Below, in pieces: positions 9,306 through 32,294 of a DNA stretch of 32,793 nucleotides (position 1 is its first letter; every line of letters starts with the position of its first letter). The stretch comes from Roseivivax isoporae LMG 25204. Its GTDB lineage: Bacteria > Pseudomonadota > Alphaproteobacteria > Rhodobacterales > Rhodobacteraceae. The DNA lies in the NCBI RefSeq assembly GCF_000521865.1, contig NZ_JAME01000043.1:1-32793 (forward strand), written 5' to 3'. Below the pieces are notes generated by a model. It made no database searches and was not told the origin of the DNA. It worked only from the letters and a program-made list of their open reading frames with translations. A program made the translations under genes and the position numbers.

Positions 9306-9331
9306 CTGTGAAATGTCCGCTGTCGAAAACG

Positions 9332-11946: not shown

Positions 11947-11955
11947 GACATGCCT

Positions 11956-12089: not shown

Positions 12090-12633
12090 ATGCCGGATGA
12101 CCGAGCGTCCGACTGGCCCGATCTTCGCCTTCGGTGTGGCGATCGGATGGTCTTGCGCATCGTCAACGCCTACCGGGTGGCCCTTCTCGACCTGAACCTC
12201 ACCTTCGACCGGGGATCGCTCACCGTCCTCATGGGGCCGTCGGGCTCGGGCAAGACCGCGCTGCAGACCACCATGGGATGTTTGCGCGAGAGTCATTCCG
12301 GCTGAGTAAGGGCCTTGGACCAGGAATCGTTCGCATCCGACGAGGTCAGCCGGATCGACACGCGCGGGCGCCTCGGGTTCATCTTCCGGGCGCACAAACT
12401 GCATGCCAGCGTCACGGCGCAGCAGAACGTGGTGATGGACCTTCAGGTGCATGACTGGGGCGATCCGACACGGCGGCGCTCGAAAAGGTCGGGGGCCTCG
12501 CGGCGCTGCAGCTGTGCATGGACCGCTGCCGCGCCCCGGGGGGACCATAACCGTCATCGTCAGCCACGATCTGCGCATCCTCGACTTGGCAGACCGCGTG
12601 GTCGAGCTGGACGATGGCAGGATCGTCAAGGAT
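12090..12633 (+). pseudogene. Decayed ABC transporter ATPase (DevA/LolD type)
   Basis: This is the wreck of an ABC exporter ATP-binding subunit of the type paired with HlyD-like and FtsX-like DevBC proteins. The first frame carries Walker A (GPSGSGKT, about residues 49-56) and then an in-frame TGA at 12303. The same frame continues after it with GRLGFIFRAHKLHASVTAQQNV, the Q-loop region with the family Gln changed to Arg. A second frame gives ALEKVGGLAALQL, and a third gives TVIVSHDLRILDLADRVVELDDGRI, the H-loop region. The signature motif and Walker B are missing, so an internal deletion of roughly 50-60 codons plus two frame changes and a stop have occurred. No membrane partners remain nearby. 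Confidence 0.85.
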
Positions 12634-12722
12634 CGAAGGGAAAGCCTGCACAGAATGCCATCCCGGGGATCGCGTGACGGCCCAGTCAGAAGGCTGCCTC
12701 GGGCACGGCACGACGTCACCGC

Positions 12723-13631: not shown

Positions 13632-13651
13632 TCAGTAGATAAACTACTTAA
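13631..13651. promoter_or_regulatory. Operator dyad between LysR and SDR genes
   Basis: AGTAG-ATAAA-CTACT (13634-13648) is a perfect dyad, extendable to eight-base arms with one mismatch (TTCAGTAG/CTACTTAA). It abuts the LysR start codon and sits about 85 bases before the SDR start, an arrangement suited to autorepression and control of the divergent gene. The AT-rich centre stands out from the surrounding GC-rich DNA. Confidence 0.65.
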
Positions 13652-13730
13652 CGCAACAAAATCACAGGGGCTAATGCCGGATCGCATCGCTGGGCTAATA
13701 AGAGGTCGGAACTGCAGGAAGGAGCTGACG

Positions 13731-14549
13731 ATGACGGACAAGGTCTGGTTCATCACCGGAGCGGCCAGAGGATTGGGGTATCTGCTCGCCCGCGACGCCC
13801 TGGCCGCAGGCGACAACGTCGTGGCGACCAGTCGAACGGTCGACGGGCTCGCCGAACGGCTCGCCGCTCCGGAGGACAGCCTACTCGTGGTGCCCGTCGA
13901 CGTTGCCGATGGCAAGGCGGTGTCGGCCGCCCATGACGCTGCCCTCGAGGCATTCGGTCGGATCGACGTGCTGGTCAACAACGCCGGGCGCGCGCAGCTC
14001 GGCTGGTTCGAAACCATCGCGGAGGAGGACGTTCGGCGACAGTTCGAGATCAACCTTTTCGGGGCGATGACCGTTGCGCGCGCGGTACTGCCCACCATGC
14101 GCCGACAGCGATCGGGCCTCGTGATCACCATCTCGTCGGTGAACGGCCTCGTCTCGAATCCCGGCGGATCGGTCTACGCGGCGTCCAAGTTCGCGCTCGA
14201 GGGCTGGATGGAGGGCCTCGCCGAGGAGATCGCACCGCTCGGCATCCGCTCTCTCATCGTCGAGCCGGGGATGATGCGCACGAACTTCCTTGATCCGTCC
14301 ACTGCTCGCCAGGGCAATTCGCACATTCCGGACTATGCCGAGGCGGTGGCCGGTTTCCGAACCTTCATCGCAGAAGCGAACGGGGCGCAGCAGAACGATC
14401 CCGAGGGGCTTTCCGCCCTGATCGTCGCTGAAGCGTCTTCTCCCGCCCCTGCGCGGCGGTTGCTGTTCGGTTCCGATGCGCACGAATGGGCACGCGCCAA
14501 GTGCCGGCAACTCGCAGAGGAGATCGACGCATCGAGCGCGCGCGCCTGA
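13731..14549 (+). CDS. SDR-family oxidoreductase
   Basis: This 272-residue SDR has TGAARGLG (9-16) for cofactor binding, NNAG (83-86), a catalytic Ser in ITISSVNG near 136, and YAASK with Tyr149 and Lys153. Ser34-Arg35 after beta-2 (ATSRTVDGL) favours NADP(H). The C-terminal region (about 190-272), with a Pro-Gly-Met-Met segment and a long helical tail, matches the bacterial SDRs that are often annotated as oxidoreductase or retinol-dehydrogenase-like. ATG 13731 has AGGAAGGAG six bases upstream. The frame is open far upstream, but that part is antisense to the LysR gene. Probable target of the divergent LysR; substrate unknown. Confidence 0.9.
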   Translation: MTDKVWFITGAARGLGYLLARDALAAGDNVVATSRTVDGLAERLAAPEDSLLVVPVDVADGKAVSAAHDAALEAFGRIDVLVNNAGRAQLGWFETIAEEDVRRQFEINLFGAMTVARAVLPTMRRQRSGLVITISSVNGLVSNPGGSVYAASKFALEGWMEGLAEEIAPLGIRSLIVEPGMMRTNFLDPSTARQGNSHIPDYAEAVAGFRTFIAEANGAQQNDPEGLSALIVAEASSPAPARRLLFGSDAHEWARAKCRQLAEEIDASSARA

Positions 14550-14723
14550 GCCCGCACGACGTCGGCCTGCCGGGCGTTTGTCGAGGGCGTGCCGTCCGGA
14601 CAGCGGCCGCCACTCTGCGGATGGGCACCAAACTCCACGTGTCATGCGTCATGGCGCGGCGTTAGCTAATGCATGCCGTCTGCTGCATCGGCCGAGTGGC
14701 GGATACTTGCCGGGCGGTTCCGC

Positions 14724-15401
14724 TCAGAGGACGGAGCGCACGGCGTCGCGGACCTCGGCGTGGAGGATCCAGTTTCCCGGGTCGTCGTCGTTCCGCTGCG
14801 TGCCGCGATAGCCCAGCAGCGTCGCCCCGTCGGGTTCGCTCGGAAGGTTCATCGCGCTGGTTTCGACGGAAAGATAGGTGCCGATCAGCAGGCCGGCGGA
14901 CGCGAAGGCGCGGTTGGCGGATGCGCGGGACTTGTAGCCCGCCGCGCGCGCCAGGCTCGCTTCCGTCAGCCCGCCGGCATCGGCGAAGGCGAGCGCCGTC
15001 AGGAGCGCGCGCTGCGGCCGCGACAGGGCAACCTGGCTCAGGGCCTCGACATATTCCTCGGGGCTGAGGATCGTCGACCCCGTCGCCTCGTCGACCCGGC
15101 GATCCTCGGTCCTGCGGACCTCGCGTGTCTCGAGGACCTGGTGCAGGGCGGCGATCGCGGCCTCTTCCGTGGCGCCTTTCGCCTCGGCAATCAGCCCGCG
15201 GGCGTTGCTCGGCGGTTTGGGGAAGGCGCGCGCCACGTATTCCCCGGACAGCAGCCCGGACTTGATCTGGTACCTGCCGTGTTCTCCCAGCTGGATCGCG
15301 ACCGGCAGGTCGGACGACCGTTCCTCGGCCTTCTCCTTCTTCTTGGGCTGGAAGAGGCTGTGGCCCGCGGCGGTACGCGCTTTGGTGCTGGAAGGCGTCA
15401 T
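14724..15401 (-). CDS. Hypothetical protein with a C-terminal helix-turn-helix-like segment
   Basis: I do not recognise this 225-residue protein with certainty. The start at 15401 is chosen for the GGAG upstream and because the further 56 upstream residues are low-complexity Arg-rich shadow. Residues 1-40 are basic and disordered (LFQPKKKEKAEERSS). The C-terminal half contains LTEASLARAAGYKSRASANRAF near 145-166, which resembles a short DNA-binding-like segment I associate with some HNH/restriction-type proteins (pattern AAGYKxxxAxN), and ends in a WILHAEVRDAVRSVL strand-helix. I see no nuclease motif. The gene stands alone between the SDR and cspA genes, and transcription runs away from cspA. 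Confidence 0.65.
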   Translation of the reverse strand: MTPSSTKARTAAGHSLFQPKKKEKAEERSSDLPVAIQLGEHGRYQIKSGLLSGEYVARAFPKPPSNARGLIAEAKGATEEAAIAALHQVLETREVRRTEDRRVDEATGSTILSPEEYVEALSQVALSRPQRALLTALAFADAGGLTEASLARAAGYKSRASANRAFASAGLLIGTYLSVETSAMNLPSEPDGATLLGYRGTQRNDDDPGNWILHAEVRDAVRSVL

Positions 15402-15782
15402 GTGGCTGTCTCCGAAAGGATGATGGGACCTGCGAAGGCTGGAAGCCCTGCGCGACGCCGGTTCTCGCCGGGGATCGGCCCGCGCGACCGGGCCGGTGCG
15501 CGAGAGACGCGGAACACGTAGGGAAGGCGGCAGGAGGCGCACACCGAGAGACCGGATGGCGGCAGGCATGCCCCCATGGCGGAATGGCGCACGTTACGTT
15601 CGGTAGGATCGACGAACCGGCGCGCCTGTGGCCAAGAACCGGTGGACGTGGCGCGGGCAGGCGTACGCTTGGTGCCCGTTCGGGCCGCGCGCCCCACCGC
15701 GTGCTGCAGACGCGTCCTGGGCGAGGGACCGGGGATCGTTGGTGCGGTCCGGGCGCCCGCGGGGGGCGCCCGGAAAGATCGA
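15402..15782. other. Gap between the HTH-like hypothetical gene and cspA
   Basis: This 381-base gap holds the hairpin downstream of cspA (15749-15773) and presumably the promoter of the minus-strand hypothetical gene. Open frames across it are GC-rich shadows, with no ribosome binding site and no recognisable product. Confidence 0.4.
15749..15773 (-). terminator. GC-rich hairpin downstream of cspA
   Basis: CCGGGCGCC (15749-15757) pairs perfectly with GGCGCCCGG (15765-15773) around a 7-base loop, ten bases past the cspA stop. It has no U-run, but the placement fits a terminator for the cold-shock message. Confidence 0.65.
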
Positions 15783-15989
15783 TCAGGCGAGGGCGAGATT
15801 GATCGCGCTCTCACGGCCGTCACGGCCGGATTCGACGTCGTAGGTCACCTTCTGTGCATCGGCGAGGCCGGTCAGGCCTGCACGCTCGACGGACGAGATG
15901 TGCACGAAGACGTCCTTGCCACCCGATGCGGGCTCGATGAAGCCGAAGCCTTTAGTGGAATTGAACCATTTCACGGTGCCATTGGCCAT
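15783..15989 (-). CDS. cspA: Cold-shock protein (CspA family)
   Basis: This 68-residue single-domain OB-fold RNA/DNA-binding protein acts as an RNA chaperone. Both nucleic-acid motifs are present: RNP1 KGFGFI (13-18) and RNP2 VFVHI (27-31). The rest (MANGTVKWFNSTKG...) is near-canonical for alphaproteobacterial Csp proteins. AGGAGA precedes the ATG by eight bases. The long gene-free stretch upstream would allow the extended 5' leader typical of temperature-controlled csp messages. It diverges from a DEAD-box helicase gene, a partner often induced with it in the cold. It may not be the orthologue of E. coli CspA itself, because genomes carry several paralogues. Confidence 0.95.
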   Translation of the reverse strand: MANGTVKWFNSTKGFGFIEPASGGKDVFVHISSVERAGLTGLADAQKVTYDVESGRDGRESAINLALA

Positions 15990-16440
15990 ATCCGTGGTCT
16001 CCTGTTCAGAGTGCTGCCCGCAGGATGCGGCAGCCCGGCAAAGTCAGACTGAGAGATCTACTGAAGCCGGTTGAACGGAAGCAGAGGGTCGCAGAGAATA
16101 ACGTTGGCTCGACACACATGGGCCCTTGCGGCTCAGAACGCAAGGACAATCGCGCCGCGTGGAAACTTCGCCGCGTCCCGGGCCGTCCGCCATTGACAAA
16201 GCGGCGGACCGGCCCCACCTGCCATCCAGTGTCATCGCTCTGCCGCGTGAGCAGGCGGCCCTCAGCCGCCCCCGGCCGTGACACACCGTTTTCCCACATC
16301 ACGTAGGGGGGACCCCGCTCAGGGCGGGTCTCGACGCAATGCGGTGTCGGGTCCGGCTGCCCCGGGTACACCCCGTCTCGCCTGGCGCCTCACGTGCCGG
16401 GCGGCGACACCGGACCCGCGGGGTCCGGACAAGGATCACC
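15990..16440. promoter_or_regulatory. Divergent cspA/helicase leader region
   Basis: This 451-base region without a supported gene lies between cspA and the helicase gene. It should hold both promoters and the long untranslated leaders expected for cold-regulated messages. A plus-strand TTGACA occurs at 16193-16198, but I see no matching -10. I could not derive a secondary structure by eye that I would defend. Confidence 0.5.
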
Positions 16441-21725: not shown

Positions 21726-22412
21726 ATGGCTCTTACAGACGTCCCAGTCCGAAAACCCGGGAAGCTGCAACGCCGGATCGCCGCGCGCGTGCCTCACAAG
21801 GTGCTCCGGGATCACGTGAACAAGTGGCGCTTCGGACCCGGTGCGCCGCTCAGCGACGAGTGCATCTACGTCTCTCCGCTCGATGTCCGCCATGTCTATG
21901 TTGAGGACAGGGGCGCGGCGGCGCCGGTGTTCAAGCGCAGGCACAGCGGCGTGGTCGTCGCCGGCGACTGGGACCTGTCGCGCGCCCCGCTCCCCGAAAC
22001 CCGTGCGGCGCGTGTCATCCACGACCATTTCGTTCGCGGCCTGAGCTGGGCCGAGACGGGGATCGTCGACTACCATCTGGCCATCATCGCGGAAAAGGGG
22101 GTCTCCGAGGGATTGCGCACGTCCCGGGACGTGCACGCCCGGTACGAGACCCTCGATCGCGTCTACGAGGAAGCGCTCCGGACCGGGCGGCTCCGGTCCC
22201 AGCGGGAGCTGCCCGAGCATTTCCGTCGCGAACACGGGGGCATCTTCGTGCATGTCGGGCGGGACGGCGCGGCCCTGCGCTCGGGTGGCGGCAGGCATCG
22301 CTTCGCGATCGCACGCATCCTCAAGCTGGCCCGCGTGCCGGCGCAACTGGGCGTCATCCATCCCGACGCCGTGCGGGCCGGGCACCTCGAGCGCCTGCGC
22401 CGCCCTCTCTGA
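21726..22412 (+). CDS. Hypothetical protein with a ParB-like nucleotide-binding motif
   Basis: This is a 228-residue protein of unknown function. The C-terminal part reads IFVHVGRDGAALRSGGGRHR, followed by FAIARILKLARVPAQLGVIHPD (about residues 173-214). This matches the ParB N-terminal/sulfiredoxin-fold pattern (strand, G-x-HR-x-A, helix, IP-x-x strand), which in ParB binds CTP. The N-terminal 100 residues contain a DWDLSRAPLPET segment typical of uncharacterised proteins near glycan genes. There is no helix-turn-helix, so it is not a chromosome-partitioning ParB. I use ATG 21726 rather than 21627: the upstream codons look non-coding, and a TACAAT hexamer (21679-21684) lies within them as a possible -10. 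It converges with the L,D-transpeptidase gene. Confidence 0.75.
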   Translation: MALTDVPVRKPGKLQRRIAARVPHKVLRDHVNKWRFGPGAPLSDECIYVSPLDVRHVYVEDRGAAAPVFKRRHSGVVVAGDWDLSRAPLPETRAARVIHDHFVRGLSWAETGIVDYHLAIIAEKGVSEGLRTSRDVHARYETLDRVYEEALRTGRLRSQRELPEHFRREHGGIFVHVGRDGAALRSGGGRHRFAIARILKLARVPAQLGVIHPDAVRAGHLERLRRPL

Positions 22413-22423
22413 CAGGCCGGAGG

Positions 22424-22445
22424 GCGGGCGCGACGGCGGGCCCGC
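22424..22445. terminator. Possible bidirectional hairpin between convergent genes
   Basis: GCGGGC (22424-22429) and GCCCGC (22440-22445) can pair across a 10-base loop in the 37-base gap between two convergent stops. It is short and GC-only, hence low confidence. Confidence 0.35.
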
Positions 22446-22449
22446 GGCG

Positions 22450-23004
22450 TCAGATCACGCGGACCTGCGTGCCGACGGGGCAGAGCGCGTAAAGCTCCTC
22501 GATCATGTCGTTGTAGAGCCCGATGCAGCCGTCGGACGACCGGCGGCCGATCTTCCGCGTGTCGTGGGTGCCGTGGATGATGTAGGCGGGCCAGCCGAGA
22601 TACATGGCATGCGTGCCGAGCGGGTTCTCGGGGCCCGGGCCGATCGGTTTCCAGTCGGGGTAGCGTTCGAGCTGCGAGGGCGTGGGCGTCCACGAGGGGC
22701 CGACCTTCTTGCGCACGATCTCGGTGTAGCCGCGCTTGGTCAGTTCCTCCGAGATCGGGACCGAGGTCGGGAAGATACGGTAATCGGTGCCGTCGTGATT
22801 CCAGAAGTGCAGCGCGCGCGACGTGGTGTCGGCCACGATCGCCGCCTTGCCGAGCGCATCGAAATGGTCGCGCCAGTCCTGCATCGAAAAGCTCGAGACG
22901 TTGCGGCGGGCGACGTCGGCGTGCAGGCGCGCGGGCGCCGCGAGCCCTGCGGCGGCGGCCAGTCCGAGCGCGAGCGCGCCCCGGCGGGTGATCCGTGTGG
23001 TCAT
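22450..23004 (-). CDS. Tat-exported L,D-transpeptidase (YkuD domain)
   Basis: This 184-residue periplasmic enzyme is predicted to form 3-3 peptidoglycan crosslinks or attach proteins to peptidoglycan through a cysteine thioester. The N-terminus RITRRGALALGLAAAAGLAAPARLHA has a twin-arginine motif and hydrophobic core. The YkuD signature is present: His144 in HGT and Cys160 in SSDGCIGL. The Arg that usually follows GCI is Gly here. A second Cys (175) lies near the end. AAGGAGA seven bases upstream fixes ATG 23004. It is the last gene of the Dsb/L,D-transpeptidase operon, after a 53-base gap. Tat export implies folding before export, unusual for a thiol enzyme of this family. Confidence 0.92.
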   Translation of the reverse strand: MTTRITRRGALALGLAAAAGLAAPARLHADVARRNVSSFSMQDWRDHFDALGKAAIVADTTSRALHFWNHDGTDYRIFPTSVPISEELTKRGYTEIVRKKVGPSWTPTPSQLERYPDWKPIGPGPENPLGTHAMYLGWPAYIIHGTHDTRKIGRRSSDGCIGLYNDMIEELYALCPVGTQVRVI

Positions 23005-23057
23005 CTGGGTCTCCTTCTTGCGGGCCGGCCACGGTCGGCGGACCGGCGGAACGGGGG

Positions 23058-23687
23058 TCAGGTCTCGGCGCGTGCCGTCGAGATCGCGGCGCGAAGCGTC
23101 GCGCGGTCGAGGGCACCGGCATAGAGCGTGGTGCCGATGGCGAAGGCGGGCGTCCCGCGGAAGCCGAGCGCCGTCGCCTGGGCATCGTTGCGGTCTAGGA
23201 GCGCGTCCCAGGTGCCGCGTGCCGCGCGATAGGCGTCCATGGCGCGCCGGACCGGCACGACCGACGCGACGGCCGCGTCGACCTGGCCCGCGTCGAGCCG
23301 GGCCTCGGTGGCCATCAGCGCCCGGTTCACGTCCGGGTAGGCGCCGAGGGCCACCGCGCCGAGGGCAAGCTGGCTCGCGCGGAGCGAGGGCGGCCCGAAG
23401 ATCGGCCAGTCCTTCATCACCAGACGCACGCCGCCGTCCTCGGTCACAACGTCCTCGAGCATGGGGTGCATGCGCTTGCAGAACGGACACTGGTAGTCGA
23501 AGAACTCGACCAGCGTGACATCGCCGCCGGGATTGCCCTGAACCGGGGCGTCGGGATCGTTCAGCACCGCGTCGACGGTGAGCGGCTGCGCGCCGCCCAG
23601 GGCGGGCCAGAGCGCGACGGCACCGGCGCCCGCACCGAGGCCGAGGGCTCCGGCGGCGCTGAGAAGGCTGCGGCGGTTCAGTGTCAT
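23058..23687 (-). CDS. DsbA/DsbG-like thioredoxin-fold protein, Tat-exported
   Basis: This 209-residue periplasmic thiol-disulfide protein has the active site CPFC (Cys67-Cys70) in the motif FFDYQCPFCKRMHP and the cis-proline pair Thr179-Pro180 in FRGTPAFAIG, with the DsbA-type helical insert between them. The N-terminus MTLNRRSLLSAAGALGLGAG carries paired arginines and a Tat-like core. The start is supported by AGGAGA seven bases upstream and overlaps the stop of the lipoprotein transpeptidase gene (ATGA). It might oxidise substrates, or, given the two L,D-transpeptidases and DsbD beside it, act as a DsbG-like reductant that protects single cysteines. Sequence alone does not decide the direction. 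Confidence 0.92.
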   Translation of the reverse strand: MTLNRRSLLSAAGALGLGAGAGAVALWPALGGAQPLTVDAVLNDPDAPVQGNPGGDVTLVEFFDYQCPFCKRMHPMLEDVVTEDGGVRLVMKDWPIFGPPSLRASQLALGAVALGAYPDVNRALMATEARLDAGQVDAAVASVVPVRRAMDAYRAARGTWDALLDRNDAQATALGFRGTPAFAIGTTLYAGALDRATLRAAISTARAET

Positions 23688-24430
23688 GGAAGGTCTCCTG
23701 TCGGTTCGGGACGGGTGGGATCGGCGGATGAGGGAGATGTCCAGCGGCCGCTCTCGCCGCGCGGCAGCACGATGACGCGGGTGCCGCTGTCGACCTCGTC
23801 CGCGAGGTGCATGACGTCCTGGTTGAACATGCGGATGCAGCCCGACGAGGCGTCTTGGCCGATGGTCCACGGGCTCGGCGTGCCATGGATGCGGTAGAGC
23901 GTGTCGCGCCCGTCGCGGAAGAGGTAGAGGGCACGCGCGCCGAGCGGATTGTCGAGGCCGCCCTCGACGCCGCCCGCGAATTGCGCGTACTTCCCGGGCT
24001 CTCGGCGGATCATGTTTTGCGTCGGCGTCCAGCCGGGCCAGTCGCGCGTGTAGGGGACCGTCGCCTCGCCGGAGAACCCGTAGCCGGCCGCGCCCACGGC
24101 GACGGTGTAGCGCATGGCACGGTCGTCCCCAAGCAGCCGGTAGAGCCGCTTCGCGCCCGGGTCGACGACGAGGGTGCCGGGCGGATGCGGTGCGAAATAG
24201 GCCACCTCCTGCCGCTTGCGCGCCTCGGAAAGATAGGCCGGGTCGATGGCGGGCACGGTGCGGCCGCCGTCCTCGACGGCTGCGTACATGGCGCGGGTGG
24301 CGGCGTCGGGCCCGGGCCTGGCCGGCGAGGCGGCCGGGTCCGCGTCGTCCCTTGGGGGTAGCGCCGGCGCGCAGGCGGACAGCAGGAGGACCATCGCGCA
24401 GCAGAGCGCGCGGGCGGACGGGTAGGTCAT
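23684..24430 (-). CDS. Lipoprotein L,D-transpeptidase (YkuD/ErfK domain)
   Basis: This 248-residue predicted lipoprotein has the lipobox LSAC (17-20), a disordered Pro/Ala linker and then an L,D-transpeptidase domain. It starts GTLVVDPGAKRLYRLLGDD and contains HGT (His182) and SSGCIRM (Cys198, Arg200), the full catalytic signature. The segment WPGWTPTQNMI is typical of ErfK/YbiS proteins. The start overlaps the stop of the TlpA-type gene by ATGA, and its own stop overlaps the start of the DsbA-like gene. It differs from the Tat-exported paralogue in export route, lipid anchor and active-site Arg, so the two probably act on different substrates or at different places in the envelope. Confidence 0.93.
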   Translation of the reverse strand: MTYPSARALCCAMVLLLSACAPALPPRDDADPAASPARPGPDAATRAMYAAVEDGGRTVPAIDPAYLSEARKRQEVAYFAPHPPGTLVVDPGAKRLYRLLGDDRAMRYTVAVGAAGYGFSGEATVPYTRDWPGWTPTQNMIRREPGKYAQFAGGVEGGLDNPLGARALYLFRDGRDTLYRIHGTPSPWTIGQDASSGCIRMFNQDVMHLADEVDSGTRVIVLPRGESGRWTSPSSADPTRPEPTGDLP

Positions 24431-25248
24431 TCGGTGTCCTTCACGATGCGGCGCATCCCCGCCGCGAGGGCGGCGCGGGAGATCTCGCCGGTATGGGTGT
24501 CGTGCAGGCGACCGGCGGCGTCGACGAAGACGGTCACCGGCAGCCCCTCGGCGCCGAGCGCGGCCATGAGGCGCGCCTCGCGGTCGAGCGCCACGTCGCG
24601 ACCGGGCAGGCCCGCGGAAGCGAGGAAGCGCGCGACGGTGCCCGCATCCTCGCCCTGGTTCACGAAGAGGAAGCGCGGCGCATCTTCCATCCCTGCCGCG
24701 GCGACCATCATCGGCATCTCGCGCCGGCAGGGCGGGCACCAGCCGGCCCAGAGGTTCAGGACCAGCGGTCCCCCCGCCGCGCCGATCTCGACCGGCGCGC
24801 CCGAGAGGTCGGTCGCGTCGACCCGGGGCAGGAGGGCGCCGCGCGGGTCGGGCAACGCGGCGCTGACCGCAGCGGTCCCGCCGAGCGCGAGGGCGGCAGA
24901 CGCGACGAGGGGCAGGGCGCGCCGAGGCGATCTGCGCACGAGGACGAGGGCCGCGACCCCGCCGCCGACTGCCCCGGCCGCGAGGGAGAACCCGCCCTGC
25001 CAGACCTTCAGCGCGTCGCGCGGCGCGGCGGCGAAGCTCTCCGCATGGGCCGCGACGAAGCCCGCGCGGGCCGCGACGATGCACGCGGCGAGGAGAAGCC
25101 AGGCATGGGGGCCGAGCGCGGCCGTCGTGCCCCGCCGGCCGCCGACGCGGTCCGCGATCTCGACCGCGACGAGGAAGAGGCCGATCCCGACGAGTGCGGC
25201 CGCGCGGTCGCCGTCGAGAACGAGGGGGCCGAGCGACACCGTGTTCAT
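24427..25248 (-). CDS. TlpA-like thioredoxin fused to an Lgt-like membrane module
   Basis: This 273-residue inner-membrane protein has two parts. Residues 1-130 contain several membrane segments and resemble prolipoprotein diacylglyceryl transferase, including the fragment RAGFVAAHAESF...VWQGGFS. The catalytic HGG after GGxSF in true Lgt is AAG here, so transferase activity is unlikely. Residues about 140-273 form a periplasmic thioredoxin domain with WCPPC (Cys171-Cys174) and the cis-Pro loop GLPVT (Pro237), as in TlpA/ResA/CcmG reductases. The natural role would be passing electrons from DsbD to periplasmic thiols. It has ATGA overlaps with dsbD upstream and the lipoprotein transpeptidase gene downstream. 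Confidence 0.88.
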   Translation of the reverse strand: MNTVSLGPLVLDGDRAAALVGIGLFLVAVEIADRVGGRRGTTAALGPHAWLLLAACIVAARAGFVAAHAESFAAAPRDALKVWQGGFSLAAGAVGGGVAALVLVRRSPRRALPLVASAALALGGTAAVSAALPDPRGALLPRVDATDLSGAPVEIGAAGGPLVLNLWAGWCPPCRREMPMMVAAAGMEDAPRFLFVNQGEDAGTVARFLASAGLPGRDVALDREARLMAALGAEGLPVTVFVDAAGRLHDTHTGEISRAALAAGMRRIVKDTE

Positions 25249-26987
25249 CGGGTGGCCTCGGCGATCGAGGCCAGCATCGCGGCGCTGTCGGTATCCCCGA
25301 CGATGCGGCTGCCCGGGGCCTCGGCGCGGTCGGCGTCGAGGAACACCATGGTGGGCGGGCCCGCGGCGCCGAGGAGGTCGAGCACCTCGCGGCTCGCGGC
25401 GCCGGCCTCGGTCACGTCGACCTTGACCGGGGCGAGCCTACCGAGGGCGTCCTGCACCGCGGGGTCGGCAAGCGGTCCGCGCTCGATGGCGCGGCAGGTC
25501 GTGCACCACCCGGCGGTCACGTAGACGAGCGCCGGACGGCTTTCGCCTGCGAGCACGGCCTCGAGCGCGGGCGCGCTCCGCACGGTGGTGAAGGCGGATG
25601 CCTCGTCCGGTGCCCGCCGGGCGTCGCCCGCGAAGGGGGCGAGCGGGCGCAGCGGGTCGTCCCCGCCCACCGCTGCACCCGCGCCCTGCAGCGCGCCCGC
25701 AAGGAGCAGGATCGCGCCGAGGGCCCGGCCCGGACGGCCGGCCCGGCTGCCGCGCGGGCCCGTGGCCAGCAGCGCGCCCGCGCCGATCAGCAGCGCCGAC
25801 CAGAGCGCGAGGGTCACCGTGCCGGGCAGCACGCGGCCCGCGAGCCAGATCGCGAAGCCGAGAAAGACCATGCCGAAGACCCGGCGCGCGCCTTCCATCC
25901 ACGGCCCCGAGCGCGGCAGGATCCGTGGCCCGAACGCCCCCACGGCGAGAAGCGGCAGGCCCTGGCCGAGACCCAGCGCGAAGAGCGCGAGCGCGCCGAG
26001 CATCACGTCCCCCGTCTGCGCGATGTAGAGCAGCGCGCCGGCGAGGGGCGCGGTCACGCACGGCCCGACGATCAGCGCCGAGGTGGCCCCGAGGAGCGCC
26101 GCGCCTCCCAGCGATCCCTGCCGGCCCTGCACGCGCGACAGGCGCGAGGAGAGCGCGCGGGGGACCTGCAGCTCGAAGAGGCCGAACATCGACAGCGCGA
26201 GGAGGACGAAGAGCGCCGCGGCGACCCCGATGGCGGGCGGCGATTGCAGCACGGCCTGGAGGTTCCGCCCAGACCATGCCGCCACGACCCCGAGGAGCGC
26301 GAAGGCCGAGGCCATCGCGATCACGTAGGCGCCCGAGAGCGCGAGGCCGCGCCGCGCGCCCACCTCCGCGCCGCGGCCCGTCACCATGCCGGCGACGATC
26401 GGCACCATGGGAAAGACGCACGGGGTGAAGGCGAGGAGCAGCCCGAAGCCCAGGAAGCCCGCGACCACGAGCCCGGCGCCGCCCCGGGCCGAGAGCCCGT
26501 CGAGGAGCCCCGGATCGGCGGCGAGCACGATATCCCGGTCCCGGGCCGGGGCGACGTCCGGCGCCCGGCCGGTGTCCTCCGCCGCGGCGCCGATGACGCG
26601 CGTCTGCGGCGGGTAGCAGATGCTGTCCTCGAGGCAACCCTGCCAGGTGAGCGTCACGGGTCCCGCGGCCGGGGCGATGCGGGCCTGAAGCCGGTCGCGG
26701 TAGATCTCCGTCTCGCCGAAGGTCGGGTCGTCCTTCCGCGTGCCGGGCGGGGTCTCGACCGCGACCGGGGCGCCGTCGGGGCCCTCGGCGCGCAGGTGGT
26801 CGCGGTAGAGGTAGTAGCCCTCCGCGATCTCCCAGGTTAGGGAAAGACCGGACGCGTCGTCGCGCACCGTGAGCGCGAAGGCCTTCTCGGCCGGCAGCGG
26901 GTCGGGGGCAGGCTGTGCCGCGGCGGCGCCGGCGGACAGCATCAGGAGGGCGGCGAGGGCGGCCCGGGGGAATCGCGGCATCGTCAT
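25245..26987 (-). CDS. dsbD: Thiol:disulfide interchange protein DsbD
   Basis: This 580-residue inner-membrane electron transporter takes electrons from cytosolic thioredoxin to periplasmic thioredoxin-fold proteins. All three modules and their cysteine pairs are visible: the N-terminal domain after a signal peptide (GCLEDSICYPP, Cys118 and Cys124), the membrane domain (FTPCVFPM, Cys190, and VGPCVTAPL, Cys310), and the C-terminal thioredoxin domain (WCTTC, Cys495-Cys498). Length matches E. coli DsbD (565). The start is ATG 26987, with ATG 26981 as a close alternative. It is the first gene of the five-gene thiol/transpeptidase operon and is divergent from a response regulator, with a PmrA-type box between them. 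Confidence 0.95.
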   Translation of the reverse strand: MTMPRFPRAALAALLMLSAGAAAAQPAPDPLPAEKAFALTVRDDASGLSLTWEIAEGYYLYRDHLRAEGPDGAPVAVETPPGTRKDDPTFGETEIYRDRLQARIAPAAGPVTLTWQGCLEDSICYPPQTRVIGAAAEDTGRAPDVAPARDRDIVLAADPGLLDGLSARGGAGLVVAGFLGFGLLLAFTPCVFPMVPIVAGMVTGRGAEVGARRGLALSGAYVIAMASAFALLGVVAAWSGRNLQAVLQSPPAIGVAAALFVLLALSMFGLFELQVPRALSSRLSRVQGRQGSLGGAALLGATSALIVGPCVTAPLAGALLYIAQTGDVMLGALALFALGLGQGLPLLAVGAFGPRILPRSGPWMEGARRVFGMVFLGFAIWLAGRVLPGTVTLALWSALLIGAGALLATGPRGSRAGRPGRALGAILLLAGALQGAGAAVGGDDPLRPLAPFAGDARRAPDEASAFTTVRSAPALEAVLAGESRPALVYVTAGWCTTCRAIERGPLADPAVQDALGRLAPVKVDVTEAGAASREVLDLLGAAGPPTMVFLDADRAEAPGSRIVGDTDSAAMLASIAEATR

Positions 26988-27010
26988 GGTGCCGGGACTG
27001 GACGCCGCAG

Positions 27011-27027
27011 CTTAAGCCAGCCTTAAG
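27011..27027. promoter_or_regulatory. PmrA/QseB-type direct repeat (CTTAAG-N5-CTTAAG)
   Basis: Two perfect CTTAAG hexamers (27011-27016, 27022-27027) with a 5-base spacer lie in the 74-base gap between dsbD and the response regulator gene. The 11-base period places both half-sites on one helix face and matches the PmrA box, (C/T)TTAA(G/T)-N5-(C/T)TTAA(G/T). The site lies 24 bases upstream of dsbD and 35 bases upstream of the regulator gene. The adjacent regulator is OmpR/QseB type, so control of itself and of the operon is likely. Confidence 0.7.
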
Positions 27028-27061
27028 GTTCGCGGGCGAGAGCCCCGGCCATGGAGACGAG

Positions 27062-27745
27062 ATGCGCGTTCTGATCGTGGAGGACGACGAGGTGCTGGCC
27101 GACGGCCTGTCGGTCGGACTGCGCCTGTCGGGGTTCACCGCCGACCGGGTCGAGACGCTCGCGGATGCCCGCGCGGCGCTCGCCACGACCGATTTCGAGG
27201 GGCTGGTGCTCGACATCATGCTGCCAGACGGGCTTGGGCTCGACCTGCTGGCCGAACTGAGGGCGCGGGGCTCGGCGCTGCCGGTCCTCCTCCTGACCGC
27301 GCGCGACCGGGTCAAGGACCGCGTGCGCGGCCTCGATGCCGGCGCGGACGACTATCTCGGCAAGCCCTTCGACCTCGACGAGCTCGCGGCGCGGCTGCGG
27401 GCCATGCTGCGCCGGGGCGAGGGGCGGGCCAGCGCGGGGCTCGCGCACAACGGGCTCTCGATCGATCCGGCCACGCTGACGGGGCGGCGGGGCGACGCCG
27501 CGCTGCGCTTCTCGCGCCGCGAGTTCGCGATCCTGCACGCCCTCATGGAGCGTCCCGGCCACATCCTGTCCCGCGAGGCGCTGGAGGAGCGGCTCTATGG
27601 CTGGCAGGAGGAGATCGAGAGCAACACCGTCGAGGTCCACGTGCACAAGTTGCGCGCCAAGCTCGGCCGCGGTGTCATCGAAACCGTGCGGGGCCTCGGC
27701 TACCGCCTCGCCACCGGGGAGGACGCGCCATCTCGATCCGGCTGA
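27062..27745 (+). CDS. OmpR-family response regulator (QseB/PmrA-like)
   Basis: This 227-residue response regulator has a receiver domain with Asp8-Asp9, the phosphoacceptor Asp51 (LVLDIMLPDGLG), Thr79 and Lys101. The C-terminal winged helix (about residues 130-220) has FSRREFAILHALMERPGHILSR and VEVHVHKLRAKLG, as in the QseB/PmrA/TctD group. ATG 27062 has GGAG upstream. Its last 16 bases overlap the kinase gene, whose ribosome binding site lies inside this gene. Its DNA target is probably the CTTAAG direct repeat just upstream. Confidence 0.93.
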   Translation: MRVLIVEDDEVLADGLSVGLRLSGFTADRVETLADARAALATTDFEGLVLDIMLPDGLGLDLLAELRARGSALPVLLLTARDRVKDRVRGLDAGADDYLGKPFDLDELAARLRAMLRRGEGRASAGLAHNGLSIDPATLTGRRGDAALRFSRREFAILHALMERPGHILSREALEERLYGWQEEIESNTVEVHVHKLRAKLGRGVIETVRGLGYRLATGEDAPSRSG

Positions 27746-29085
27746 GACTGTTCGCGATCCTCGCGCTCGCCACCGGGGCCGTCTGGCTGTCGGCGGCGCT
27801 GTGGATCCAGAACTCCACCCGTGCCGAGGTCGAGCGCGTGCTCGACGCGCGGCTCGCCGAGGCCGCGACCATGGTGTCCTCGCTCATCTCCGACCACCGC
27901 ATCGAGGTCGCCCGCGCCGGCGGCGCGCCGGTCCCGGTGCCGATGCCCGCGCCCTCGGGATATTCGCGGCAGCTCTCCTGCCAGATCTGGTCGCTCGACG
28001 GCACGATGGTGGGCCGCTCGGGCGGCGCGCCCGAGGCGGAACTGACCGGGTCCGGGCAGGAGGGCTACTCGGTATCGATCGTCGATGGCGAGCCTTGGCG
28101 CGTCTACACGGTGGTCAATCCCGAGCTCGGCGTGCGCGTGATGGTGGGCGACAGTCTCGCCGTGCGCGACCGGCTGGTGCGCGACGTGCTCGAGGGCCTG
28201 CTCCTGCCCGCGGCGGTGATCCTGCCGATCCTCGCGGCGCTCATCTGGATCAGCGTGGCGCGCGGCCTCGCGCCGCTCGACCGGTTGGCCGAGGCACTGC
28301 GCGCCCGCGCGCCCGCGGACCTCAGCCCGCTGCCCGCCGGGCCTGCCCCGCGCGAGATCCGCCCCGTACGCCGGGCGCTCGACACGCTCTTCGCCCGGGT
28401 GGCGGCGGCGCGCGACGTCGAGCGCGACTTCACCACCTATGCCGCGCACGAGCTCAAGACGCCGCTCGCGGGGCTCCGGACGCAGGCGCAGGTGCTGCGC
28501 ATGGCGGAGGACCCCGCGACCCGCGACGGCGCCCTGCGGGCGATCGAGATCTCGGTCGACCGCACCGACCGCATGGTGCGCCAGCTGCTCGAGCTTGCCG
28601 CGGTCGAACGGACCGAGGACGCGATCGAGCCCACCGACACGGCCGAGCTCGTGGCCGGGACGCTCGACGACCTCGACATGCTCGCGCGCGGACGGGACGT
28701 GACGCTCGCATTGACCCGAAAGGATATCGGGCACCCGTTCGAGACCAACCCCTTCCTCTTGCGCGCGGCGCTGCGCAACGTGGTCGAGAACGCCATCCTC
28801 GCCTCGCCGCCCGGGGGCCGGGTCACGGTGTCGCCGCTGTGCGACGACCGGCTCCTCACGATCGTCGTGCGCGACGAGGGGCAAGGCATCCCGCCCGAGC
28901 TGCGCGACAGGGTGACCGAGCGTTTCGCGCGCGGTCGCACGAGCGGGCCGCAGGGCAGCGGGCTCGGCCTCTCGATCGTGGCGAGCGCGATGGAACGTCT
29001 GGGCGGCACGGTCGTCTTCGACGCCAGCTCCGGCCAGAGCCAGGTGGTGCGGCTGGTCCTGCCCGCGCGGCCCCCGGCAGCCTAG
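27730..29085 (+). CDS. Sensor histidine kinase (QseC/PmrB-like) with apparent AUC start
   Basis: This membrane sensor kinase has about 451 residues if read from 27730. The reading frame starts (I/M)SIRLRLFAILALATGAV, a typical kinase N-terminus and first membrane helix, directly after GGGGAGGA with six-base spacing; but the codon is ATC, not ATG. The next usual codon, GTG 27838, would remove the first 36 residues and the first membrane helix. From there on: a periplasmic region, a second membrane segment (LLLPAAVILPILAALIWISV), HAMP, the H box HELKTP (His240), the N box (Asn354) and G1/G2 boxes DEGQG and GSGLGLS. Its gene overlaps the regulator by 16 bases and ends in CTAG shared with the converging kinase gene. 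Confidence 0.88.
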   Translation: MSIRLRLFAILALATGAVWLSAALWIQNSTRAEVERVLDARLAEAATMVSSLISDHRIEVARAGGAPVPVPMPAPSGYSRQLSCQIWSLDGTMVGRSGGAPEAELTGSGQEGYSVSIVDGEPWRVYTVVNPELGVRVMVGDSLAVRDRLVRDVLEGLLLPAAVILPILAALIWISVARGLAPLDRLAEALRARAPADLSPLPAGPAPREIRPVRRALDTLFARVAAARDVERDFTTYAAHELKTPLAGLRTQAQVLRMAEDPATRDGALRAIEISVDRTDRMVRQLLELAAVERTEDAIEPTDTAELVAGTLDDLDMLARGRDVTLALTRKDIGHPFETNPFLLRAALRNVVENAILASPPGGRVTVSPLCDDRLLTIVVRDEGQGIPPELRDRVTERFARGRTSGPQGSGLGLSIVASAMERLGGTVVFDASSGQSQVVRLVLPARPPAA

Positions 29086-30371
29086 CCCCGCGCGGGCAGG
29101 GTCACGCGCGCAAGAAGCCCGCCGAGGTCGGCCCGGTCGAGCACCAGCGTCCCGCCATAGGCGCGCACCCGGTCCGCCGCGATCGCCAGGCCGAGCCCGT
29201 GGCCCTGCGTGCTCTCGTCGAGCCGCGCGCCGCGCGCGAGCAGGCGGTCGCGGTCCGGGGCGGGGATGCCGGGGCCGTCATCGGCGACGTCGATCACGAG
29301 GCCGCCCGCGCCCGCCGCGGCGGTGATGCGCACGCGGGCCGCCGCCCAGGCGACGGCGTTCTCGGCCAGGGTCCCCACGATCTCGATCAGGTCCTCCGCA
29401 TCGCCGCGGAAATCCGGCGCGCCCTCGGCGCGGACGTCGAGCGCGATGCCTTGTCGCCGCGCCCCGGGGGCGAGCACCAGCGCCACGTCCTGCAGCGCGG
29501 GCGCGACGGCGCAATGGGCCGCCGGATCGAGCCCCGCCGCCGAGGCGCGTGCGCGGTCGAGATGCCAGCGGATGATGCGGTCCATGCGCGCGATCAGCGC
29601 GGCCTCCTCGGGGCCTGCGCGGTTCGACAGGACCGCGAGCGGCGTCTTGAGCGCGTGGGCGAGGTCGCCCGCATGCGCGCGCGCCCGCTCGACCTGCGCC
29701 GCCCGTGCGGCGATCAGGCGGTCGAGTTCGTCGGCGAGCGGGCGCAACTCTGCGGCGGCGGGGCGTGGGACGGTGCCCGTCGTTCCGTCGCGGACCTGCG
29801 CCACCGACCGCGCGAAGCGCGTGAGGTCGCGAAGCCCCGCCCGCACCGCCACGACCTGCGCGACGAGCAGGCCCGCGCCGAGGACCGCCAGCGCCACGAG
29901 AAGCGGGCGGCGCACGGTGGCGAGCTCCGCCGCCGCCTCGGCCGCGGGCAGCGTGACGGCGACGGTCAGCGTCCGCCCGTCGCCCGGCGCGGTGAACCGC
30001 GCGCGGTGCGCGATGAGCGCGGCGCCGTCGGGGCCGATCCCGCGCGCGCCGTCGGGTCCGAGATCGCCGGTGACGAGCGACGGCGCCCGGGCGAGGACCT
30101 CGGTGCCATCGCTCACCTGCCAGTACCAGCCCGAGAGCGGCCGCTCGAACCGGGGATCGGCCGGTGCCGGGATCACGTCGAAACGCCCGGCCGCGTCCCA
30201 TTCCGCCGCCGCCATGACCGCCCGCGCGCCGGCTGCCAGTTCCGCCTCGAGCCGGCGCGTCACGAAGTCCGACAGGACCGCCGACAGCGCGATCCAGGCG
30301 AGCACGAGGGCCGCCGCGGTCAACGCGCCCGACCAGAAGAGGAGCCGGCCGCGGATCGAGCCTGCGCTCAT
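29082..30371 (-). CDS. Sensor histidine kinase (PhoQ/FeuQ-like)
   Basis: This 429-residue membrane sensor kinase has a first membrane helix (LLFWSGALTAAALVLAWIAL), a periplasmic domain of about 115 residues with the PhoQ-like element RFERPLSGWYWQV, a second membrane helix (LLVALAVLGAGLLVAQVVAV), a HAMP-like linker and the H box DLAHALKTPLAVL (His239). N box ENAVAWA (Asn338), DDGPGIP and GHGLGLAIA follow. The DLAHALKTP form of the H box is characteristic of PhoQ/FeuQ kinases, known to respond to envelope or osmotic conditions. It overlaps its regulator's gene by ATGA. Confidence 0.92.
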   Translation of the reverse strand: MSAGSIRGRLLFWSGALTAAALVLAWIALSAVLSDFVTRRLEAELAAGARAVMAAAEWDAAGRFDVIPAPADPRFERPLSGWYWQVSDGTEVLARAPSLVTGDLGPDGARGIGPDGAALIAHRARFTAPGDGRTLTVAVTLPAAEAAAELATVRRPLLVALAVLGAGLLVAQVVAVRAGLRDLTRFARSVAQVRDGTTGTVPRPAAAELRPLADELDRLIAARAAQVERARAHAGDLAHALKTPLAVLSNRAGPEEAALIARMDRIIRWHLDRARASAAGLDPAAHCAVAPALQDVALVLAPGARRQGIALDVRAEGAPDFRGDAEDLIEIVGTLAENAVAWAAARVRITAAAGAGGLVIDVADDGPGIPAPDRDRLLARGARLDESTQGHGLGLAIAADRVRAYGGTLVLDRADLGGLLARVTLPARG

Positions 30372-31039
30372 TGCCCGGGATCTGCGGGCAGGAGCCGGTA
30401 CCCCTCGCCGCGGCGGGTCTCGATCCGCGCCTCGCCGATCTTCCGGCGCAGACGACCGATCACCACCTCCATCGAACGGAAGTCGCGGTCGGAGTCGCGG
30501 TCGTACATGTGTTCGGAAAGCTCGGCCCGGCTGACCACGCGGCCCTTCTGCAGCAGGAGAAAGCGCAGGAGCTTGCCCTCGAACGCGGTGAGCCGCACCG
30601 GCATCCCGTCGAGCGTCACGAGCCCCGTCGCCATGTCGAGGACGAGCGCGCCGGCGGAGAGTTCCGAGGTCGCGTGGCCTGCCGCGCGCCGCACCAGCGT
30701 GCCGAGCCGCAGCACCACCTCCTCCATCCGGAAAGGTTTGAGCACGTAGTCGTCGGCCCCGGCGCGGAAGCCCGCGACCTTGTCCGACCAGGCGTCGCGC
30801 GCGGTCAGGATGAGGACGGGAAAATCGTGCCCCGCGCCGCGCCAGCGCCGCAGCACCTCGATTCCGTCGAGACCGGGCAGGCCGAGATCCAGCACTGCGG
30901 CGCCGATCGTCTCGGTCGCGCCCAGGAACTCGCCCGCCTCGCCGTCATGCGCGGTCTCGACCGTGTAGCCGGCCTCGGTCAGCGCCGTGCCGATCTGCGC
31001 CGCGAGGTCGCGCTCGTCCTCGACCACGAGCACCTTCAC
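30368..31039 (-). CDS. OmpR-family response regulator (PhoP/FeuP-like)
   Basis: This 223-residue response regulator has phosphoacceptor Asp51 (AVLDLGLPGLDG), Thr79, Lys101 and a C-terminal winged helix with LTAFEGKLLRFLLLQKGRVVSRAELSEHMYD and the FRSMEVVIGRLRRKIG recognition region. It begins at GTG (31037-31039) in a GTGA overlap with the stop of the upstream PepSY-like gene, and its stop overlaps the kinase start by ATGA, so the three genes are translationally coupled. Group placement with PhoP/FeuP rests on kinase partner and motif style. Confidence 0.92.
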   Translation of the reverse strand: MKVLVVEDERDLAAQIGTALTEAGYTVETAHDGEAGEFLGATETIGAAVLDLGLPGLDGIEVLRRWRGAGHDFPVLILTARDAWSDKVAGFRAGADDYVLKPFRMEEVVLRLGTLVRRAAGHATSELSAGALVLDMATGLVTLDGMPVRLTAFEGKLLRFLLLQKGRVVSRAELSEHMYDRDSDRDFRSMEVVIGRLRRKIGEARIETRRGEGYRLLPADPGQ

Positions 31040-31344
31040 CGCTGGCCGCCCGGCAGGATGCGCGCCTCGGACTGGCCCACGCCCTTGACCTCGAGAAAGC
31101 GGCAGCCGGGGCCGGTCAGCTCGATCTGCAGGACGTTGCCCGCGGGCGTGAGCCAGCGCAGCTCCTGCACCAGCCCGTCCTCGTCGTCGCGCAGGCGCAG
31201 CGCCTCGCCGCGATAGCGCGCGGCCGCGCAGTCGAGCGCGGCGGCGGGACCGATCGGCACGGCGTCGCGCGGCGGGTCGCCGGCGGCCGCGGTCGCGCCG
31301 AGCGAAAGGCAGAGGCAGAGCAGGGGCAGGGCGGACAATCGCAT
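31036..31344 (-). CDS. Small periplasmic PepSY-like protein
   Basis: This 102-residue exported protein has a signal peptide (MRLSALPLLCLCLSLGATAAAG, cleavage near residue 22). The rest is a single PepSY-like repeat: helix around CAAARYRGEAL, then ELRWLTPAGNVLQIEL and the final strand. Two cysteines (39 and 81) of the mature part could form a disulfide. The start at 31344 is chosen because the 37 upstream residues of the longer frame are not coding in style. Gene order PepSY-regulator-kinase resembles FeuN-FeuP-FeuQ of rhizobia, where FeuN is a periplasmic inhibitor of the kinase; that role here is an inference. Confidence 0.8.
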   Translation of the reverse strand: MRLSALPLLCLCLSLGATAAAGDPPRDAVPIGPAAALDCAAARYRGEALRLRDDEDGLVQELRWLTPAGNVLQIELTGPGCRFLEVKGVGQSEARILPGGQR

Positions 31345-31457
31345 GGCTTCCGATATAGTGCGCGGATGCTCAACGGAACCCAAACGGCGCGGTTGCGGCT
31401 GCATTCGGGACGAATCGGCCATGGTGCCCGCATCTTGGAACCCGAAGGAGACCAACC
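31345..31457. promoter_or_regulatory. Divergent promoter region with ATTCG-GGA-CGAAT dyad
   Basis: This 113-base gap between the two divergent PepSY-like genes contains the perfect dyad ATTCG-GGA-CGAAT (31403-31415) and, next to the minus-strand start, TATATC as a possible -10. The FeuP-like regulator may bind here; no PhoP-type direct repeat was seen. Confidence 0.4.
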
Positions 31458-32294
31458 ATGAGACGCACCCTTGCCGCCACCATCGCCGCGATCGCCCTGT
31501 CCGCGCCGTTCGGCGCGCCGCTCGCCGCGCAGGACGCGCAGCTGTCGGGATCGGTCGCCGACCGCTTCGGCGACCAGGTCGTGGTCGCCACGCCCGAGGG
31601 GCGCATCCTCGTGACGCTGCCCGACGGTGTCGAGGCGCCCGAGGCCGGCGCGCAGGTCACGCTCGAGGGCACGCGCACCGGCAACACCTTCGCCGCGACG
31701 GCGCTCGAGGTCGGCGCGGCACCGGCAGAGGACGGCAGCGTGGCCGGCCTGCCGCAGGCCCTGCAGGGCCTCGGCCTGACCGAGGTGCGCAGCCGGCCCG
31801 ACGATGACGGCGAGACCTACATCTATGCCCGCCTGCCGGAGGGCGGCTGGCTCCGGGCCGAGGCACGGGGGGATCGGCTGCTCGAGGTCCAGAGCGACGG
31901 CGCGGGTCTGCCCGACGCGCTGGTGACGGCGCTGCTGCCCGAGGCCACGCGCGCGGAGCCGCGCCTCGCCGACCTCGGCCGGCTGACCGAGATCGAGCGC
32001 GACGACGACGAGATCTCGGTCGAGGGCTACGCGCAGGACGGCATGCGCATCGAGATGGAATTCGGCCGGGACGGCACGCTGCGCGACTACGAGCGCGAAC
32101 GCGACGACCGCCGGTCGCTGACCCGCGACGCCGCGCGCGAACGGCTCGAGGCGCTGGGCTATACCGGGATCGGCTTCGTCGAACGCGGCGGCCGCCACGT
32201 GGCGGCGCTGGCCGTGAACCCCTATGGCGACCAGGTGGAGGTCCGCCTCGACGAGAGCGGCCGCGTCGAGCGCGAGCGCCTCTGGACGGAATGA
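31458..32294 (+). CDS. Periplasmic PepSY-domain protein
   Basis: This 278-residue exported protein has a signal peptide (TLAATIAAIALSAPFGAPLAAQ). The N-terminal part (25-90) is a small beta-rich OB-like domain (SVADRFGDQVVVATPEGRIL...VTLEGTRTGNTFAATALEV). The rest has PepSY-like repeats, the last beginning SLTRDAARERLEALGYTGIG and ending in VEVRLDESGRVERERLW. AAGGAGA before ATG 31458 supports the start. It diverges from the small PepSY-like gene of the FeuPQ-like operon. A modulator or target of that system is plausible, but PepSY domains occur in many contexts. Confidence 0.82.
   Translation: MRRTLAATIAAIALSAPFGAPLAAQDAQLSGSVADRFGDQVVVATPEGRILVTLPDGVEAPEAGAQVTLEGTRTGNTFAATALEVGAAPAEDGSVAGLPQALQGLGLTEVRSRPDDDGETYIYARLPEGGWLRAEARGDRLLEVQSDGAGLPDALVTALLPEATRAEPRLADLGRLTEIERDDDEISVEGYAQDGMRIEMEFGRDGTLRDYERERDDRRSLTRDAARERLEALGYTGIGFVERGGRHVAALAVNPYGDQVEVRLDESGRVERERLWTE

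Follow-up and report, generated by a model that had tools for sequence, protein, structure and literature searches.

L,D-transpeptidase genes in a putative DsbRS-type regulon of Roseivivax isoporae and related bacteria

We analyzed a stretch of 32,793 nucleotides from Roseivivax isoporae LMG 25204 (contig NZ_JAME01000043.1, positions 1 to 32,793; hereafter the window), in which a minus-strand run of five genes in the order dsbD-tlpA-ldtA-scsC-ldtB occupies positions 22450-26987, as confirmed by an open reading frame and sequence check. The genes encode a DsbD-type electron importer, a TlpA fusion protein, a ScsC-like protein and two L,D-transpeptidases (Ldts), and the operon probably represents a variant form of the copper-sensing DsbRS-dsbDEG system, found in Alphaproteobacteria, with Ldts added to the regulon. 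Judged from the positions of genes and promoter boxes in many genomes, the co-regulation is well supported, and L,D-TRANSPEPTIDASES would be part of a DsbRS-type regulon. A reading of this DNA made earlier from its letters alone (the sequence-only reading) had proposed a self-contained and undescribed system. Its core is the known DsbRS-dsbDEG arrangement, while the coupling to Ldts appears undescribed: no DsbRS-type/Ldt coupling, in Rhodobacteraceae or elsewhere, was found in the literature searched, whose coverage excludes most subscription journals.

The operon and its divergent two-component system

As the sequence-only reading had stated, the five genes are joined by ATGA overlaps at three junctions (25245-25248, 24427-24430 and 23684-23687) and by a spacing of 53 bases between the scsC-like gene and ldtB, and the catalytic motifs of all five are complete. 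A single terminator-like site was found in 22300-27300; it lies within dsbD, and none was seen at the gene junctions. The identical five-gene order recurs in L083, L084 and L104 (Paracoccus indicus), with variants in many other loci (L and G numbers denote our loci and genomes), so the arrangement is not due to chance. Nor is it confined to this genome, because the linkage of reductants and Ldts extends well beyond it.

The five genes are not the whole unit, and the operon is not self-contained. It includes the divergent regulator/kinase pair at 27062-29085, left out of the sequence-only reading, which shares a 74-base promoter with dsbD, and the box within this promoter belongs to it as well (Table 1). 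The window regulator is 51-52% identical to the dsbD-divergent regulators of Pseudomonas (L141) and Stutzerimonas (L178). For comparison we collected TlpA-fusion loci from the best 80 of 567 confirmed matches (named organisms) and from Rhodobacteraceae, where a search of 394 genomes at E<=1e-25 gave a fusion in 15. Of the 63 beta/gamma/other loci, 26 combine kinase and regulator with dsbD-tlpA; they include loci of Pseudomonas, Stutzerimonas, Lysobacter, Acinetobacter, Polaromonas and Pseudacidovorax. L172 has dsbD on the same strand as the regulator pair, and in the remaining loci the two are divergent. The fusion of a TlpA-like domain to an Lgt-like anchor is homologous in the fetched Pseudomonas loci, which do not include the P. 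aeruginosa protein, and in Pseudomonas L141 a DsbC_N-type DsbG is encoded downstream of tlpA.

A sensor-domain cysteine is present in 43 of the 44 aligned kinase rows, and the 44th row comes from a split gene, of which it covers the C-terminal half; the cysteine is in the N-terminal half. Depending on the start codon taken, this residue is numbered 82 (L133, L178) or 81 (L141, L158), and we take it to be the counterpart of DsbS Cys82, the reported copper ligand. Among the 21 of 394 Rhodobacteraceae genomes with a kinase match at E<=1e-60, the cysteine is found in 20; the weakest match, G036, lacks it, leaving 20 kinase-positive genomes for the counts below. Three papers describe DsbRS of P. 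aeruginosa as copper-responsive and as activating dsbDEG (PMC10141476, PMC11195947, PMC13101516).

The shared promoter holds the only match in the window to CTTAAG-N5-CTTAAG, with 0 mismatches, where shuffled sequences gave a mean of 0.05 matches at up to 2 mismatches. This box fits TTA-N8-TTAA, which we take to be the DsbR consensus. The looser pattern is present in 36 of 37 regulator-divergent promoters, many of them from close Pseudomonas relatives, and absent from that of L102.

Table 1 Features of the operon, its promoter and its divergent two-component system in the window (aa, amino acids; TM, transmembrane).
Feature	Positions	Strand	Length	Description
dsbD	25245-26987	-	580 aa	DsbD, membrane thiol electron importer, alpha + TM + gamma domains
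TlpA fusion	24427-25248	-	273 aa	DsbE/TlpA-like thioredoxin on membrane anchor resembling the first half of Lgt
LdtA	23684-24430	-	248 aa	Lipoprotein YkuD L,D-transpeptidase, catalytic Cys198, lipobox Cys20
ScsC-like protein	23058-23687	-	209 aa	Periplasmic thiol oxidoreductase, CPFC, GTP loop, twin-Arg leader
LdtB	22450-23004	-	184 aa	Tat-type YkuD L,D-transpeptidase, catalytic Cys160, second Cys175
Putative DsbR box	27011-27027	.		CTTAAG-N5-CTTAAG within 74-base divergent promoter
DsbR-like regulator	27062-27745	+		OmpR-family response regulator, PmrA/QseB type
DsbS-like kinase	27730-29085	+		Sensor kinase, periplasmic Cys in SCQIW; start codon uncertain

Ldts behind the box in other genomes

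A YkuD gene is present in all 12 Rhodobacterales/Rhizobiales loci that hold dsbD and the regulator, or 13 of 13 with L083, which was added by hand and whose regulator is in two pieces below threshold. Among the beta/gamma/other loci with both genes the profiles, built from alphaproteobacterial Ldts, found none in 26, and a regular expression added to catch other Ldts matched only in L145; by eye we took this match, one in L105 and further ones in L084 and L106 for out-of-frame noise. Loci L097-L099, fetched for other reasons, are excluded from the count. A box lies within 400 base pairs (bp) upstream of 14 of the 38 Ldts of these loci and of 1 of 52 Ldts elsewhere (Fisher p 1e-5), a value that overstates independence because the loci share ancestry. 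The 52 include five Ldts from the window's own genome and remained after removal of 13 loci that repeated Dsb/kinase loci or lay in kinase-positive genomes; of the latter, L052 is unboxed and L200 (G363) has a looser box, 61 bp upstream of LdtB.

The tight pattern TTAAG-N5-CTTAA was then counted throughout the 21 genomes with a kinase match and 20 genomes without. The former contain 42 tight boxes (none in G036) and the latter 12. Totals per genome are not clearly above a reversed-pattern control (9 versus 7 in the window's own genome), so that no genome-wide excess was found, and the argument therefore rests on the position of the boxes. In this respect the two sets differ: 23 of the 42 boxes lie within 700 bp of the start of a regulator, dsbD, tlpA or Ldt gene, against 0 of the 12.

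These positions bear on the explanation that the locus is a Dsb locus for cytochrome maturation in which the Ldts are bystanders carried by chance. The TlpA/ResA/CcmG-like fold of the gene 2 product would suit it, as would the boxes found ahead of oxidase genes in three genomes. It leaves unexplained that Ldts of different subfamilies occur in varied positions with boxes of their own, and that an Ldt gene is found no more than 150 bp from 6 of the 42 tight boxes, when roughly 0.015 such boxes would be expected (assuming 11 YkuD genes and 4.5 megabases per genome), and we consider it very improbable.

The 20 kinase-positive genomes were then listed by hand. In 17 of them an Ldt gene is preceded by a box or belongs to a boxed operon (the case in G266, at 367 bp, is weak), a count raised to 18 by the unlinked LdtB of G363 with the looser box mentioned above, and a boxed dsbD was seen in 13. 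The box lies between regulator and Ldt in G247, G320, G353 and G294 (376 bp from LdtB in G294); separate boxes precede LdtA and LdtB in G123, and a box precedes LdtA in G237 and LdtB in G034. LdtB is boxed away from the kinase in G120, where it is on a different contig, and in G083, where it is about 390 kilobases (kb) off. The packaging of all genes as one transcript, as seen from the window, is not a conserved trait, since Ldts and dsbD belong to separate predicted transcripts, each boxed, in several genomes, for example G123, G237, G320 and G353.

Trees of the two Ldt types, made by a quick method that does not separate gains from losses, add to this picture. The LdtA-type tree has 59 rows, 25 of them from these loci, and requires 8 changes of the locus label, at least 5 of which are forced by well-supported branches; the LdtB-type tree (36 rows, 16 from these loci) also requires 8, at least 2 of them forced, and is poorly resolved with 18 of 33 branches open. 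On both, the label is clustered beyond shuffles, and part of the linkage is therefore inheritance. As far as such trees go, a single event as the origin of the LdtA linkage does not explain them, which suggests that Ldts may have been recruited repeatedly into these loci.

CTTAAG-N5-CTTAAG was also found 37-63 bp before a COX1-family oxidase frame at L087:14609, L251:16833 and L273:1501 (G417, G034 and G170), and in G034 FixO adjoins the boxed frame. A terminal oxidase may be a further DsbR target.

The encoded proteins and the proposed response

Domain searches agree with the gene names of the sequence-only reading except in two respects, its "Lgt-like" and its "DsbA-like" label. The gene 1 product has the DsbD_N and DsbD_TM domains (Pfam), a C-terminal thioredoxin domain and all six cysteines of the pairs Cys118/124, 190/310 and 495/498; NCBIfam calls it DsbD (471.9 bits, cut-off 330), a score that tentatively favors DsbD over ScsB as the importer. 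The TlpA fusion has the active site WCPPC (Cys171/174), matches Redoxin, ResA and TlpA, and resembles the ResA/CcmG-like fold. Its Pfam LGT match is partial (25.7 bits, cut-off 24.9, residues 26-114) and covers the model's first half only. Histidine is present in 0 of 16 aligned fusion sequences at the place in the alignment that we take to be that of the Lgt catalytic histidine, and because of this an acyltransferase role is unlikely; gene 2 was accordingly rejected as a lipoprotein acyltransferase. G014 (L088) carries two TlpA fusions, 7515-8321 and 10435-11226, one of which follows dsbD while the other heads a separate boxed series tlpA-scsC-ldtB-ldtA.

The protein labeled DsbA-like is, by its structure matches, ScsC-like. 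It has a CPFC site (Cys67/70; CxxC conserved in 29 of 29 aligned proteins), a GTP motif with threonine before the presumed cis-proline, and a Pfam Thioredoxin_4/DSBA domain, with no DsbC_N, unlike the DsbG of Pseudomonas L141. The nearest solved chain is 3gyk, presumably from Silicibacter, followed by Caulobacter ScsC 7rgv (E 8e-24) and four others. Five of the six best matches are ScsC-type chains (7rgv, 4xvw/5id4, 4gxz, 6nen and 6mhh) and include proteins of Caulobacter, Proteus and Salmonella; 6nen and 6mhh are taken as ScsC from the molecule name. PMC8900818 identifies 7rgv, 5id4 and 4gxz as ScsC, and the title of the paper on the Caulobacter protein gives it as binding Cu(I).

LdtA and LdtB each score over the Pfam cut-off for YkuD and carry the HG...SxGC motif, as SSGCIR in LdtA (catalytic cysteine in 22 of 22 aligned LdtA-type proteins) and as SDGCIG in LdtB (Cys160 at 22525-22527; 9 of 9). 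The second cysteine of LdtB, Cys175 (22480-22482), 15 residues past the catalytic one, is present in only 6 of 9 LdtB proteins of Dsb loci and makes a weak candidate for a conserved redox switch. The operon does not hold "the" crosslinking enzymes of the cell, as had been proposed, since the genome encodes 11 YkuD proteins; an operon-specific Ldt family was likewise rejected, the LdtB family being present in 365 of 394 Rhodobacteraceae genomes. The two enzymes may form 3-3 crosslinks, and 1,3 crosslinking or protein tethering is equally possible for them; Ldts are also capable of 1,3 crosslinks or of tethering proteins to the wall, according to PMC12729407. A second LdtA in the same genome (L099:8612-9283, G000:C17) is 73% identical to that of the operon; it is unboxed, and the 18 kb fetched there contain no match to a Dsb gene. 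In another genome of the genus (L097:4926-5785, G001:C12) the sequence before LdtA matches the TlpA fusion in its final 52 residues only, a stub that looks like the remnant of a lost operon.

We propose the following response. The DsbS-like kinase, a relative of DsbS, is likely to sense periplasmic copper through the conserved sensor-domain cysteine. Active DsbR would with high probability bind the conserved CTTAAG-N5-CTTAAG and drive both the regulator pair and dsbD-tlpA-ldtA-scsC-ldtB. From what is known of the families, electrons would very likely pass from cytosolic thioredoxin through DsbD to the membrane-fixed TlpA/DsbE protein and to the soluble ScsC-like protein, and these reductants would undo copper-catalyzed damage to periplasmic cysteines. 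LdtA and LdtB would be made in the same response so that active enzyme is renewed and kept reduced, because copper presumably inhibits Ldts through the catalytic cysteine. It is thus copper as the signal, direct reduction of Ldt cysteines and a benefit to the Ldts that we infer. That the DsbRS system of Rhodobacteraceae has been rewired, so that Ldts are among its main outputs and no less constant than the Dsb reductases, has about an even chance of being right.

Several observations weigh against this proposal. Of the 63 beta/gamma/other loci, 37 lack dsbD, the regulator or both in the fetched stretch. The regulator is present and an Ldt absent in L096 (another family) and in L102 and L105, which we take to be Sphingomonadales, and an Ldt occurs in 3 of 8 Rhodobacterales/Rhizobiales loci that have dsbD and no regulator nearby. 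In G170, G363 and G416 no tight box precedes an Ldt, LdtB of the window has no box of its own, and 19 of the 42 tight boxes have no regulator, dsbD, tlpA or Ldt target, three of the 19 preceding an oxidase gene. As for copper itself, we found no alphaproteobacterial member on which a copper experiment had been done. Of the 172 called neighbors, 90 were searched (the rest, mostly very short or very long, were omitted by hand), and the 25 commonest of their 112 families include none for copper resistance; neither do 9 further neighbor proteins, so that a copper-efflux neighborhood was not seen among the sampled families.

The last result would suit the same circuit answering to another signal, for instance hypochlorite or a similar oxidative or thiol stress, and a reactive cysteine can indeed sense oxidants. 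P. aeruginosa DsbS is reported to bind copper, and its reported ligand cysteine is conserved, which makes a signal other than copper unlikely.

With copper as the proposed signal, the use made of the Ldts can be understood in two ways. In the first, proposed by the sequence-only reading as a dedicated redox guard, the oxidized catalytic cysteines of LdtA and LdtB receive their electrons directly from TlpA and the ScsC-like protein. Reductants and Ldts are adjacent in many loci, ATGA-overlapped operons like that of the window favor keeping Ldts reduced, and the Thr-Pro loop and the kinship with ScsC suit a reductase or isomerase. In Helicobacter pylori, HP0231 is reported to have reduced the putative Ldt HP0518 in vitro, a point for which the authors want clarification (PMC3463561). 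Against it stand four kinase-positive genomes (G083, G120, G247 and G266) with a boxed Ldt, no TlpA fusion at E<=1e-25 and no tight box by dsbD, dsbD not having been searched genome-wide there, and five loci (L086, L091, L103, L113 and L116) whose fetched stretch contains Dsb genes but no Ldt. Two of these, L086 and L091, come from genomes that have a boxed Ldt elsewhere (G237 and G353), and L116 begins at a contig end. We hold direct reduction to be a tentative explanation, somewhat less than probable.

In the second, more Ldt is made to replace the copper-inhibited enzyme or to reinforce the wall or the outer-membrane attachment, and the Dsb proteins serve other substrates. Ldts boxed apart from Dsb genes favor this making of more Ldt. 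Copper(II) is said to inhibit Ldt-family enzymes (PMC8630537, citing Peters 2018), and E. coli Cpx, with copper among its cues, to raise LdtD and diaminopimelate-diaminopimelate (DAP-DAP) crosslinks (PMC6737893). Replacement does not explain why Ldt and Dsb genes share one operon in many loci, with ATGA overlaps in the window, and it too seems to us possible while falling a little short of probable.

Under either use, the linkage suggests that protection or replacement of copper-sensitive cell-wall enzymes is part of the copper response. If the rewiring is real, copper sensing is wired to keeping the cell wall, or its links to the outer membrane, working when copper disables Ldts. The genetic link between a copper-sensing circuit and enzymes reportedly inhibited by copper is conserved in a large environmental family, and it joins this inhibition and the reported DsbG-type protection of Ldt cysteines into one testable circuit, for which the predicted binding site and the unlinked targets offer direct checks.

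Around the operon, a second kinase-regulator pair lies on the opposite strand directly past the DsbS-like kinase (29082-31039), with best matches to PhoQ/PmrA below cut-off. The G+C content is 60-69% in the left half of the window (1-16000) and 71-77% in 22001-32000, which covers the operon and both two-component systems, and this step possibly reflects a different origin. At the right end, 31039-31455 (-) and 31458-32291 (+) have no Pfam match at E<=0.001.

Comparison with known systems

DsbRS-dsbDEG of P. aeruginosa was reportedly described by Yu et al. 2022 (Science Bulletin 67:198). As in the beta/gamma loci, a PmrA/QseB-type regulator and a kinase are divergent from dsbD-dsbE in the window, and dsbE is TlpA-like on an Lgt-like anchor. 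The sensor cysteine of the window kinase stands at the place of Cys82 in DsbS, and the promoter box fits the DsbR consensus. The window differs in that a ScsC-like protein replaces the DsbC_N-type DsbG, and in that the window and its relatives add Ldts in the operon or under the same box; it is not a plain member of the system, because the defining DsbG gene was not found.

The Scs system (ScsB-ScsC-ScsD) likewise combines a DsbD-type importer, a soluble ScsC and a membrane protein, ScsD, which is TlpA-like. In contrast to Scs, the importer of the window scores as DsbD, its CPFC protein is without the long N-terminal region of trimeric ScsC, and Ldts and a DsbRS-type pair are present.

In E. 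coli, DsbD and DsbG are said to rescue YbiS-type Ldts (Depuydt et al. 2009), and as in the window a DsbD-fed periplasmic reductant is combined with Ldts that have a catalytic cysteine. The link in the window is genetic and regulatory, and Ldt reduction would be a predicted step. The E. coli DsbD, DsbG and YbiS-type Ldt genes are not known to form one operon. From true Lgt, gene 2 differs in matching the first half only and in having no histidine at the presumed catalytic place. The Cpx system of E. coli is a functional parallel, a copper-responsive envelope two-component system that raises an Ldt (PMC6737893), but its regulator is another one, and here it is a DsbRS-type pair that shares its promoter with dsbD or an Ldt gene.

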